Part shown: piece after piece, positions 48,918-63,211 of the stretch
Layout: the number at the start of each line of letters is the position of its first letter
How positions within the stretch are numbered: the stretch's first letter is position 1
From: Ridgeia piscesae
Lineage: Eukaryota; Annelida; Polychaeta; Sabellida; Siboglinidae
Reading direction: 5' to 3'
Assembly: GCA_025642075.2 (NCBI GenBank)
Contig: JAODUO010000191.1
Coordinates: 489,501 to 553,500 of the forward strand
DNA: 64,000 nt
The notes under the pieces: generated by a model
The model's input: only the letters and a program-made list of their open reading frames with translations
Told to the model about the DNA's origin: nothing
The model's database searches: none
Translations under genes and position numbers: made by a program

Positions 48918-48975
48918 TCATCGGATCCAGAAGCGGTTAAACCACATGACGCCAGTGATTGCCGACAGGGAGTAC
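48918..48975 (-). CDS. SURF1 terminal exon
   Basis: The acceptor CTTGTTACAG|GTACTCC opens the exon. The first G completes a Trp codon split by a phase-2 intron; the rest reads [18 protein letters not shown] then TGA. This is the C-terminal transmembrane helix of SURF1. Immediately upstream (higher coordinates) the acceptor is copied in a 69-bp tandem repeat. Confidence 0.92.
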
Positions 48976-60900: not shown

Positions 60901-63211
60901 CGCGGCACCAATCCAATCGTTTTTCAAACCGATCTATTGTGTAACCAGCGCTTGGTTTGTGTGGTAATTTCTTAAGTGTTTGTTTAAAACGTTACCAATT
61001 CCTTTGATTGCATTTAATTAACTTTAGGCACATTCAATTTGGTACAAAGTCCTGTTTGTTTGCGCCGATATCAATCGCGTTTGTCTCCTGCCAGTTCGCT
61101 GTGGCTTCGGCGAAGGCGCCCGTTCACTGTGGCTTCCGCGAACGAGCGCATTCGCCGGCTTGTAAATGGCAATTAAATTGCTTTCGAATCGGGCGGTGAC
61201 AAAAAATAATTATGGTACTGAAATGGCAGGCTAAAGTTATGTTTTCTTCATTACGTATACGAAAAACATTTACTTGTGCGCAAATATACGAATTCGTAAA
61301 CTGCGTGTGAACCGCAGTAGCCTCGAACCACCGTGAATTGCATTATAAATCGGCACGGTAAATGTGCGATCTAAATTTTTATTTTGGGATTGATTAAAAG
61401 ATGAAATTAAGCCAACAGTGAGCGCAATTAGTATAAGTATTAATATTTGACCGACTTCGGCAACATGTCAAACCATTTGTACGTTTCGGCTGCTGAGTTC
61501 AAGGTTATTTTAGACCGCGACCGTGTACTGTGTTATCGCTCCGCCTCAGTTCGCATCGCCAGACAAGGCGCGTTGGCTCTGAATTTATTTCAAAACTGTA
61601 CACCATTCGCAAGATTTACTCAGTTCAACATTCGACAGTGTATATTATTTTAACGTAATACACATTTACGTTGGTTTCAATGTCAGTTAGTTTTATAAAT
61701 CACGCATACACCGTGCAACCAGCACATTGGCTTTGGTTGCTGTTGTAGCGTTTTGCCACTTTTGGGGGTGGTGGCGCCCCTGGCGGAATATAATCTATAA
61801 CGCGCCTCGTTTACAATGCGGTTCCATTTCGTGGACCCCAACTACCGCGTTATAACGAGGCGCGACTGTATATATATATATATATATATATATATATATA
61901 TATATATATATATATAAACAAACAGCACTTATGCAATTGTAAAATATTCTAGTCACTATTCTGAATATTATTCTATCTTAGTTGTATGCTTTATCTGTAT
62001 AAAACAAAGAAACTATTGTGTTAAATCATTTTTATGGGCCTCTTTATAAGCCCCTAGGTTTTTTTAGAGGATCTCCTCGGTTGCAATATTTATATTTGCT
62101 TTTTGTTGTTTTAATTCAATTGTATATTATGTTCGCAATATCTTGTAACCAAACTAAGGTTCAATTCAGTATCATTCAGTAACTGTAATTAAGACAAGTC
62201 ACGCACTACGTATGAGAGTGAATGCACTGTTATAACTTTCAAGGAATGTTATGTACTAAGTATGACAGTGAATGCATAATCATTTTCAGCCTCGGGGGAG
62301 GGGGCATATGAGAGAGCATTCAGCACTTTGTATACTGACCATTTGGCCTCTGGGAAGCATTCAACCATGTTGCAGATACTGTGCAAAAGCTCATTTGATC
62401 ACTGTGTATAGCTGTGATAAAAGAACTAGCTCAATGTTTGAAAGCACAGCAAGAGAATAAATCAGGAATCTTCTGAAATAAACCAAGAATATTCTGACAT
62501 GACCCCTGAATTTACAGCCACAATATGACCCTTAAGCTTACAACTATACCTTGACCTTTGAACTTACAGCCATAACCCCATAACCTCTTAACATACTCGT
62601 GGGGCAGTGGTGAATGACCTCTGAACTTACTCGTGAGGCAGTGGTACAGGAACTGCGAGGGTGAATGACCTCTGAACTTACTCGTGGGGCAGTGGTACAG
62701 GAGCTGCGAGGGTGAATGACCTCTGAACTTACTCGTGGGCCAGTGGTACAGAAGGTGGGAGGGTGAATGACCTCTGGACTTACTCGTGGGGCAGTGGTAC
62801 AGGAGCTGGGAGGGTGAATGACCTCTGGACTTACTCGTGGGGCAGTGGTACAGGAGCTGGGAGGGTGAATGACCTCTGGACTTACTCGTGGGGCAGTGCT
62901 ACAGGAGCTGGGAGGGTGAATGACCTCTGGACTTACTCGTGGGGCAGTGGTACAGGAACTGCGAGGGTGAATGACCTCTGAACTTACTCGTGGGGCAGTG
63001 GTACAGGAGCTGCGAGGGTGAATGACCTCTGGACTTACTCGTGGGGCAGTGGTACAGGAGCTGGGAGGGTGAATGACCTCTGAACTTACTCGTGGGGCAG
63101 TGGTATAGGAGCTGCAAGGGTGCGTCTCTCCATGTCAGCTATCAGGTCCAACTTCCACTTGCGTCGCTCCACCTGCCACGTGCCGAGTGCAAACGCAGCC
63201 ACAGGAATAAA
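48918..63211 (-). CDS. SURF1, cytochrome c oxidase assembly factor (partial gene)
   Basis: SURF1 is a mitochondrial inner-membrane protein needed to assemble cytochrome c oxidase (complex IV). Six exons on the minus strand join in frame: 63211-63090, 60088-59903, 58649-58577, 58163-58116, 51259-51178 and 48975-48918, about 189 codons. Family blocks in order are [95 protein letters not shown] and [16 protein letters not shown]. All junctions use GT-AG with matching phases (2, 2, 0, then 2 at the last intron). The N-terminal exon with the targeting peptide is not seen. One exon of roughly 100 bp between 58116 and 51259, normally encoding a PFVPENN-type block, is missing. Introns are filled with minisatellites, several built from the splice junctions. 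Confidence 0.95.
48974..49495 (-). repeat. 69-bp tandem repeat carrying the last-exon acceptor
   Basis: Units begin with the reverse of the acceptor (ACCTGTAACAAGACACAACT) at 48974, 49043 and 49112, exactly 69 bp apart, with diverged copies at about 49180, 49350 and 49425. The first unit contains the true SURF1 acceptor and the first two exon bases. Others repeat CTTGTTACAG|GT followed by intronic sequence. The 49190-49330 part is degenerate or of poor sequence quality. Confidence 0.9.
49607..50150. repeat. 17-bp minisatellite in the last SURF1 intron
   Basis: The unit GACCAATGACCACCCCT and variants (CAACGACC, CAACTATC) repeat irregularly over 540 bp. Long minus-strand frames rich in VRGGHWSGV are artefacts. 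Confidence 0.93.
50151..50635. other. Unique spacer within the last SURF1 intron
   Basis: AT-rich unique sequence between two minisatellites. An open frame on the forward strand at 50375-50698 runs into the repeat and has no recognisable domain. Confidence 0.5.
50640..51190 (-). repeat. 35-38-bp minisatellite carrying an exon end and donor
   Basis: Each of about 15 units holds, on the minus strand, TACATCATCACATG|GTAAAT, which is the last 14 bases of the SURF1 STVPGG exon plus its 5' splice site. The unit continues with GTAACACCACAAATA. The first unit, at 51178-51190, is the exon edge itself. Copies differ mainly by an extra GTT. Confidence 0.95.
51178..51259 (-). CDS. SURF1 exon with the [15 protein letters not shown] block
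   Basis: The acceptor GTGTTTCAG|AAAGTAC opens the exon. Two bases complete a codon from the previous (missing) exon, then [26 protein letters not shown] and TG of a Trp codon. The donor is ACATG|GTAAAT. This is the most conserved block of SURF1. The exon starts in phase 1, so the preceding exon must end with one extra base. Confidence 0.95.
51262..51555. other. Unique intronic spacer in SURF1
   Basis: AT-rich intron sequence between the exon at 51259 and the large array. I searched the minus strand for the missing PFVPENN-type exon here and found none. Confidence 0.6.
51560..56560 (-). repeat. Giant 41-45-bp minisatellite, about 120 copies
   Basis: On the minus strand the unit reads TTGAAGCCAGTG, TTCTCACATACAGACAGGA, then GTAAGTGGTC. 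Copies vary by TATG insertions (41 to 45 bp). Each carries a GGA|GTAAGT donor. Read in the phase the next SURF1 exon requires, the unit gives KPVFSHTDR plus one base, joining to STVPGG with the same spacing as the P-I/V-F to STVPGG interval in SURF1 proteins. The array therefore appears to be built from the end of a missing SURF1 exon. Copies at 51720-52130 and near 56530 have many deletions. Confidence 0.95.
56561..56734. other. Degenerate junction between two arrays
   Basis: A noisy stretch containing fragments of the 41-bp unit and then of the following 28-bp unit with many indels. It may be an assembly join or old, decayed copies. This is where the missing SURF1 exon would be expected. 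Confidence 0.6.
56735..57605. repeat. 28-bp minisatellite in SURF1 intron
   Basis: The unit GATCATGGAGGGAGTGGATC plus TTGTAATA is repeated about 31 times, with CTGGAGGCAGTG variants concentrated at the high-coordinate end. On the minus strand units contain CACTGCCTCCAG, which resembles a 3' splice site. Confidence 0.94.
57606..58115. other. Unique SURF1 intron sequence
   Basis: Unique sequence between the 28-bp array and the IEGEVEL exon. No exon is visible on either strand. Confidence 0.6.
58116..58163 (-). CDS. SURF1 exon with IEGEVEL block
   Basis: A 48-bp exon, acceptor CTGTTGACAG|ATCG and donor GAAAAG|GTAAGA, both in phase 0. It encodes [16 protein letters not shown], which matches the SURF1 family segment following the NPK.R..GQ block. 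Confidence 0.93.
58305..58470. repeat. 45-bp repeat, about 4 copies, in SURF1 intron
   Basis: The unit is centred on CATGTACATTCATGTTCATG and GTACTGGATAAATATGGCAT. It lies between two SURF1 exons. A small forward frame through it is an artefact. Confidence 0.85.
58500..58596 (-). repeat. Two-copy 53-bp duplication of a SURF1 exon end and donor
   Basis: The exon 3' end and donor at 58577 (AGTATCGGCATGAAGGACAG|GTGAAG on the minus strand) are copied 53 bp downstream, with AAGTATC at 58543 and ATTAAGGACAG|GTGAAG at about 58524. The copy keeps a full donor with a few substitutions (GAA to TAA in the exon part). Confidence 0.9.
58577..58649 (-). CDS. SURF1 exon with [13 protein letters not shown] block
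   Basis: A 73-bp exon, acceptor TTTGTTTCCAG|CAAACG and donor GGACAG|GTGAAG. The first base completes an Asn codon, then [20 protein letters not shown] and HEGQ. This corresponds to the conserved ILVNRGWVP block of SURF1/Shy1 proteins. Confidence 0.95.
58662..59670. repeat. 23-bp minisatellite abutting a SURF1 acceptor
   Basis: The unit GACACTCAGGCACAGGACA plus GTGA is repeated about 44 times, with 20-bp deletion variants. The array begins about 13 bp from the acceptor of the exon at 58649, so its last unit merges with the polypyrimidine tract. It ends in a short GGAC tetranucleotide run at 59672-59688. Confidence 0.95.
59903..60088 (-). CDS. SURF1 exon with KFDHSKELY block
   Basis: A 186-bp exon, acceptor CCGGTACAG|TTTTGAC and donor ACAAA|GTAAGT. 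The first T completes an Asp codon, then [38 protein letters not shown] and [14 protein letters not shown]. The block is characteristic of SURF1, in the intermembrane-space domain of the protein. Confidence 0.95.
60502..60698. repeat. TG microsatellite
   Basis: About 197 bp of pure TG on the forward strand, ending in TATGTATGTATATA directly before the transposon. Confidence 0.99.
60711..61868. mobile_element. Non-autonomous pogo/Tigger-like DNA transposon
   Basis: The 5' end CAGTCGCGCCTCG plus CTATAACGCG and the inverted 3' end CAGTCGCGCCTCG plus TTATAACGCG match at 22 of 23 positions. TA dinucleotides flank both ends (60709-60710 and 61869-61870), as expected for Tc1/mariner-superfamily insertion at TA. 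Extra copies of TATAACGCG lie just inside both ends. The 1158-bp interior has only frames of about 60-70 codons with no transposase motif, so it must be mobilised in trans. It inserted in the SURF1 intron at a TG/TA microsatellite. Confidence 0.88.
61869..61916. repeat. TA microsatellite at the transposon target site
   Basis: About 46 bp of TA directly after the transposon 3' end. The insertion probably split a compound TG/TA tract. Confidence 0.96.
62590..63118 (-). repeat. 51-bp minisatellite carrying an exon end and donor
   Basis: On the minus strand each of about 10 units contains GCAGCTCCTGTACCACTGCC, CCACGA and then GTAAGT, a copy of the last 26 bases of the SURF1 exon ending at 63090 plus its 5' splice site, followed by about 19 intronic bases. 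The true exon edge is the first unit. Reading through a donor meets TAA at once, so the extra units cannot extend the protein in frame. Confidence 0.95.
63090..63211 (-). CDS. SURF1 exon with [12 protein letters not shown] block
   Basis: A 122-bp exon, acceptor TTTTCTCCACAG|TTTATTC and donor CCACGA|GTAAGT. It encodes [40 protein letters not shown] and GA of an Asp codon completed by the next exon. The start is the end of the first transmembrane helix and the GTWQ motif typical of SURF1. The preceding exon, with the mitochondrial presequence, is not recognised in 63212-64000 and probably lies beyond the window. Confidence 0.95.

Follow-up and report, generated by a model that had tools for sequence, protein, structure and literature searches.

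Do exon–intron boundaries act as starting points for minisatellites, or do long intronic repeats overlap such boundaries only by chance? The question is raised by a SURF1 gene on the (−) strand of a 64,000-nt window from the tubeworm Ridgeia piscesae (assembly GCA_025642075.2, contig JAODUO010000191.1, positions 489,501 to 553,500), in which several splice junctions lie within tandem arrays. In our reading, to which we give a probability of roughly 60%, these arrays are junction-spanning minisatellites ("mirages") that were born by local duplication of a boundary and grew into the intron, with the exon-proximal site still used. In the Ridgeia genes sampled, junction arrays also outnumber those to be expected from uniform seeding.

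The SURF1 exons were mapped by Pfam matches, direct reading of the sequence and tblastn with the SURF1 proteins of Dimorphilus and Apostichopus; this gene and its arrays are all given as features of the (−) strand. Exon A (63090..63211) encodes 40 residues and was found by tblastn with Dimorphilus/Apostichopus, its peptide being identical in the deposited Ridgeia SURF1 protein P0001. Exon B (59903..60088) was located by a Pfam SURF1 match and tblastn, exons C (58577..58649), D (58116..58163) and F (51178..51259) by sequence and tblastn, and the last exon, G (48918..48975; 18 residues and the stop), by sequence reading. Arrays were delimited with Tandem Repeats Finder (TRF), and each junction tested was represented by the 24-mer centered on it, a copy being scored at ≥18/24 matches up to 700 nt into the intron.

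At three donors the repeat unit holds exon and intron of one and the same boundary, which is how we define a junction-spanning minisatellite. Donor A (63090) lies in a 51-bp × 10.1 array (62609..63122) whose unit consists of 33 nt of exon and 18 nt of intron, with 10 copies of the junction 24-mer. Donor F (51178) is crossed by a 35-bp × ~15.9 array (50640..51191) with 14 further copies, and donor C (58577) by a 53-bp two-copy duplication (58490..58597, ends approximate) whose copies were compared directly; the 24-mer test, and not TRF, detected its one further copy (22/24 at a shift of 53). The preliminary description of this locus had reported these donors as duplicated with the junction inside the unit (51 bp in about 10 copies, 53 bp in 2 copies and 35–38 bp in about 15 copies), and all three duplications were recovered. 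Seven other SURF1 junctions tested showed no 24-mer copies.

The case of acceptor G (48975), for which the same kind of duplication had been claimed, proved different in part. A 69-bp × 4.7 array does hold the acceptor (48974..49294, by TRF and sequence), and a related 70-bp × 2.1 block follows at 49345–49492 (TRF). The unit is made up of a polypyrimidine stretch, the AG and only the first 2–3 nt of the exon, so that exon plus intron are combined in it by those few nucleotides alone, and no copy of the junction 24-mer reached the threshold (best match, 16/24). The array at 48975 is thus an acceptor array and hardly an exon-edge duplication.

The protein suggests which of the copies is used. 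In P0001, exon A is joined to exon B by a direct link of PLPH to DFDELED, which corresponds to the exon-proximal donor A. More generally, the reading frame and the protein run on across exon-proximal sites in SURF1 and in the sampled genes, as judged at the protein and sequence level with one deposited SURF1 protein. Only with the exon-proximal copy in use would the coding sequence remain intact; the protein would then be left unchanged and the array would be nearly neutral. Gene models in such genomes can nevertheless break at junction arrays, as in P0001 itself, which continues beyond duplicated donor C so that its stop falls in the intron.

The preliminary description had proposed an intron scan for an excess of arrays at junctions, and we ran one on a sample of the R. 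piscesae genome (628 Mb, 4,875 contigs). The sample comprised 103 introns with 206 junctions in 14 genes, namely CCT1 to CCT8, HSP60 and five myosin genes, chosen by Pfam family and not by repeats. For the chaperonins, 9 of 12 Cpn60/TCP1 regions were modeled (C299, C107 and C271 were left out, the latter two being long open frames), and for the myosins we used five tiles with three or four matches each (17 of 78 matches). Exons were completed with PDB orthologues, CCT8 proteins and human sequences; 90 of the 103 introns were solved as phase-matched GT–AG pairs and 13 edge by edge. Two spanning arrays, at the acceptor of CCT3 exon 976 (54 bp × 3.3) and the donor of myosin C411 exon 4200, were dropped before counting because the other intron end was missing. 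The main TRF set had a period limit of 250 and a length floor of 40 bp, and the period limit kept out two CCT5 blocks, one spanning (470 bp × 2) and one interior (364 bp × 3.8). Since even a long array counts as a single birth, all arrays were reduced to one unit each, and the expectation was the chance that a uniformly placed unit takes in a junction of the intron so shortened.

Near-copies of the junction 24-mer (≥18/24) were found at 17 of the 206 junctions. One, at the CCT8 (C505) acceptor 13429, was discounted, its copy lacking the AG; the remaining 16 junctions with their own tandem copies (6 donors and 10 acceptors) are spread over 10 of the 14 genes. Of the 24 arrays with at least five copies, 13 include a junction versus 3.9 expected (P about 4e-6), a figure subject to the caveats discussed below; by TRF ends alone the count is 12 of 24 (P = 2.3e-5). 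Taking all arrays, 16 of 45 are spanning versus 6.2 expected (P = 3.9e-5), and when periods up to 500 and shorter arrays are admitted, 17 of 55 are spanning versus 7.2 expected (P = 9e-5), the large arrays remaining unchanged. These figures supersede an earlier count on incomplete gene models, in which 9 of 45 arrays were spanning by strict count versus 3.6 expected (P = 0.006); four arrays first taken as interior (223 and 43 bp in HSP60 [C580], 31 and 46 bp in CCT8) turned out to lie on junctions of exons found later.

One alternative is that Ridgeia introns are so rich in minisatellites that junctions are sometimes included by chance, with SURF1 as an extreme gene that happened to be noticed. 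Tandem arrays do make up 27.5% of the 120,294 bp of sampled intron, SURF1 was singled out for its arrays, and arrays cover less of the sequence next to junctions than of the deep intron. Against this, genes that were not picked for their arrays still give the excess of junction-spanning large arrays described above, which holds when ancestral introns are assumed to have been half as long (P = 0.002, large arrays) and when any one of the eight genes with large arrays is removed (P ≤ 3.3e-5 in each case). A kinesin mini-sample points the same way, two of its 12 resolved junctions carrying spanning arrays (36 bp × 7.8 and 85 bp × 3.5). It consisted of the best exon matches, picked before their sequence was seen (7 of 132 used, one better-scoring match with many stops being skipped), and two donors left unresolved are outside the count. 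We therefore regard overlap by chance as unlikely.

Several observations weigh against a preference for junctions. Raw array coverage, measured around 89 exon matches, amounts to 5.6% in the first 20 nt on the donor side versus 30–32% at 0.8–2 kb, and to 13.0% versus ~26% over the same distances on the acceptor side; the excess is visible only with each array counted as one seed. Compared with random intron positions, near-copies in the first, incomplete set were found at 12 of 152 junctions versus 5.2 expected (P = 0.006), and a looser threshold on that set gave 13 versus 7.4 (P = 0.036). With ancestral introns assumed to have been one-third as long as the collapsed introns of today, P becomes 0.037 (0.096 with strict ends). 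By our own scoring, splice motifs in array units are not in surplus over shuffles or the antisense strand. In 4 of the 14 genes of the sample, the introns counted are free of spanning arrays, and within the window an intron of the (−)-strand innexin gene (42319 to 36775) has a 35-bp × 35 array (38195–39435) that lies off the junction.

An excess could also arise from uniform births followed by biased retention or detection, in that an array at a junction can never be wholly deleted, one copy being essential, and the conserved copy keeps it recognizable for longer. One copy would necessarily be under purifying selection, and the excess of 24-mer matches in the incomplete set is indeed weaker than that of the large arrays. 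However, TRF does not depend on the exon copy to detect arrays of at least five copies, and it is for these that the ratio of observed to expected is largest. In addition, large non-spanning arrays, which enjoy no such protection, are themselves in excess within 25 nt of a junction (4 of 11 versus 1.1 expected). Biased survival thus appears improbable, ranking slightly behind chance overlap. Our leading guess, and the simplest reading of the excess, is that mutation favors splice sites or their immediate neighborhood.

We next consider what the units themselves contain. In the 13 sampled arrays whose TRF ends cross the junction, the exon share of the unit is 7–29 nt and, as in SURF1 donor A with its 33 nt, it is mostly longer than a splice motif; slippage between copies of a splice motif is therefore not enough to explain the arrays. 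A comparison of 20 units revealed only two pairs that are alike, over 22 nt at 95% and 15 nt at 93%, in line with the earlier suggestion of separate events with one common outcome. The 22-nt match lies just upstream of the AG in the acceptor units of CCT7 (C17) and CCT4 (C288), and may reflect chance or a common 3′ intron motif. Three SURF1 units (one of them as 60 of its 69 bp) had no match in 293 kb of other loci. A unit that is a contiguous piece of its own gene's exon and intron, unrelated from gene to gene, argues for local tandem duplication and array growth and not for dispersal. The insertion of a mobile or introner-like element at junctions, which would predict dispersed relatives, is accordingly the least probable of the explanations considered: nothing was seen in its favor, the exon edge found in each unit is that of the host gene itself, and the two short matches among 20 units, like the lack of matches to SURF1 units in those 293 kb, show no such dispersal.

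Multiplied junctions might instead be kept by selection as spare splice sites that make splicing more robust, as the preliminary description had suggested. A canonical AG or GT is retained at the junction-homologous place in all 15 consensus units tested (of the 16 spanning; the 223-bp unit was too long). Even so, these dinucleotides are preserved about as well as the other positions of the unit and not clearly better (mean rank, 0.54, the neutral value being 0.5; Wilcoxon test, P = 0.096), which argues against strong selection in favor of spare sites. A bias of unit length toward multiples of three was also considered and dropped, as 7 of the 16 spanning units have such a length and no clear bias is seen. 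Use of the internal copies would, moreover, put exon scraps into the mRNA. Selection of this kind is therefore very unlikely, and the suggestion found no support in our data.

A further part of the preliminary description concerned the largest array of the gene, 41 bp × 121.6 at 51575..56604 (TRF), which had appeared to derive from the donor of a missing exon. An exon for ~36 conserved residues was not found between 58116 and 51259, either by tblastn of the (−) strand with the two orthologues or among open frames. This same interval is the site of two large arrays, the 41-bp array and an interior 28-bp × 31 array (56738..57614, TRF), and the expected exon may be lost, highly diverged or mis-assembled. 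The 41-bp array contains GAGTAAGT, a donor-like word, and nothing beyond that; since no such exon was found, an origin from its donor cannot be claimed. The missing exon, in a place where array lengths may be wrong, is also the point that would favor an assembly artifact at repeat-rich introns as the source of the arrays in general. Yet the units of spanning arrays differ from one another (TRF matches of 81–99%), arrays are present on many contigs, and the window contains no N. An artifact thus seems a very remote explanation, more so than selection for spare sites.

Junction-spanning minisatellites born by local duplication are the reading that we prefer, and they could form as follows. A short local tandem duplication would take in a splice junction, reaching 2–33 nt into the exon at one end and into the intron at the other. 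Slippage or unequal exchange would then enlarge the duplicate into a minisatellite on the intron side, while the copy nearest the exon would remain the working splice site. The spliceosome would pick this exon-proximal copy, as the continuity of the protein suggests.

Minisatellites nucleating at splice junctions were, as far as the preliminary description knew, an undescribed class, but such a class has been reported. Mirages have been described in amphioxus Adh3, troponin C and the globins BflGb6 and BflGb9 (PMC3087553, PMC3902484), and repeats in PGBD5 have been likened to them in a report that also names troponin C (PMC3902484). The amphioxus units measure 10–72 bp in Adh3 and 150–160 bp in the globins (PMC3087553). 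Amphioxus mirages and Ridgeia arrays are alike in consisting of minisatellite-like copies across an exon–intron boundary, at donors as well as acceptors, with similar unit length and with internal copies that often retain the AG or GT. The Ridgeia case differs in that the host is an annelid, arrays reach ~52 copies, ~8% of sampled junctions are affected and the frequency was tested against uniform seeding. Normal splicing, length polymorphism and somatic instability are reported for amphioxus mirages, whereas the Ridgeia arrays are known from one assembly.

Tandem repeats at exon–intron boundaries are also found in human segmental duplications, with a unit of ~30 bp on average (PMC2812944). 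These resemble the Ridgeia arrays in being boundary minisatellites that alter gene structure, but the human exonic repeats are variable and may become spliced-out new introns in recent paralogues, whereas the Ridgeia arrays lie in conserved housekeeping genes and leave the frame unchanged. Among annelids, intron 1 of an earthworm metallothionein gene carries minisatellites with a mean monomer of ~180 bp in mirrored clusters (PMC12783039), and is thus, like Ridgeia SURF1, an example of large intronic arrays; an exon edge within the unit, as seen in Ridgeia, is not stated in the accessible portion of that paper. Among the matches listed in open-licence literature, none described arrays of this kind in a tubeworm. 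The class is therefore already known, and its occurrence in a tubeworm is, as far as our searches show, new.

On a broader and tentative reading, to which we would give slightly less than even odds, vestimentiferan splice junctions could be preferred birthplaces of large minisatellites, about half of the long intronic arrays starting as boundary copies and the introns of thousands of genes growing in this way. Decoy sites, exon scraps and new introns would then be supplied continually, and the underlying process would probably be linked to breaks or replication and tied to splice junctions. Should junctions be true hotspots, a single genome would offer hundreds of natural experiments on how the spliceosome chooses among near-identical sites. 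It would also make testable a route by which introns grow or are gained, such as has been proposed for amphioxus globins (PMC3087553).

Other arrays in and around these genes deserve brief mention. In SURF1, TRF also detected a 23-bp × 44 array (58662..59671), which stops 12 nt before exon C without AG or exon sequence, and an interior 45-bp × 3.2 array (58320..58463). The four sampled arrays with the most copies end 3–16 nt before a splice junction and do not include it; in stitched-region coordinates (transcript sense), they are located in CCT8 (C505, 16732–20241, 155 copies), HSP60 (C580, 11070–13495, 94 copies), CCT2 (C306, 15444–19297, 84 copies) and a myosin gene (C285, 3350–4616, 79 copies). 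Outside SURF1, the window hosts other long minisatellites at 3–1809 (54 bp × 33) and 29711–31825 (31 bp × 68). Two innexin genes lie in opposite orientation, at 9494–11310 (+) and 36017–42822 (−), each with two Pfam-matched open frames, and a reverse transcriptase fragment (Pfam RVT_1) is located at 46525–47016 (−), ~1.9 kb beyond the SURF1 stop.

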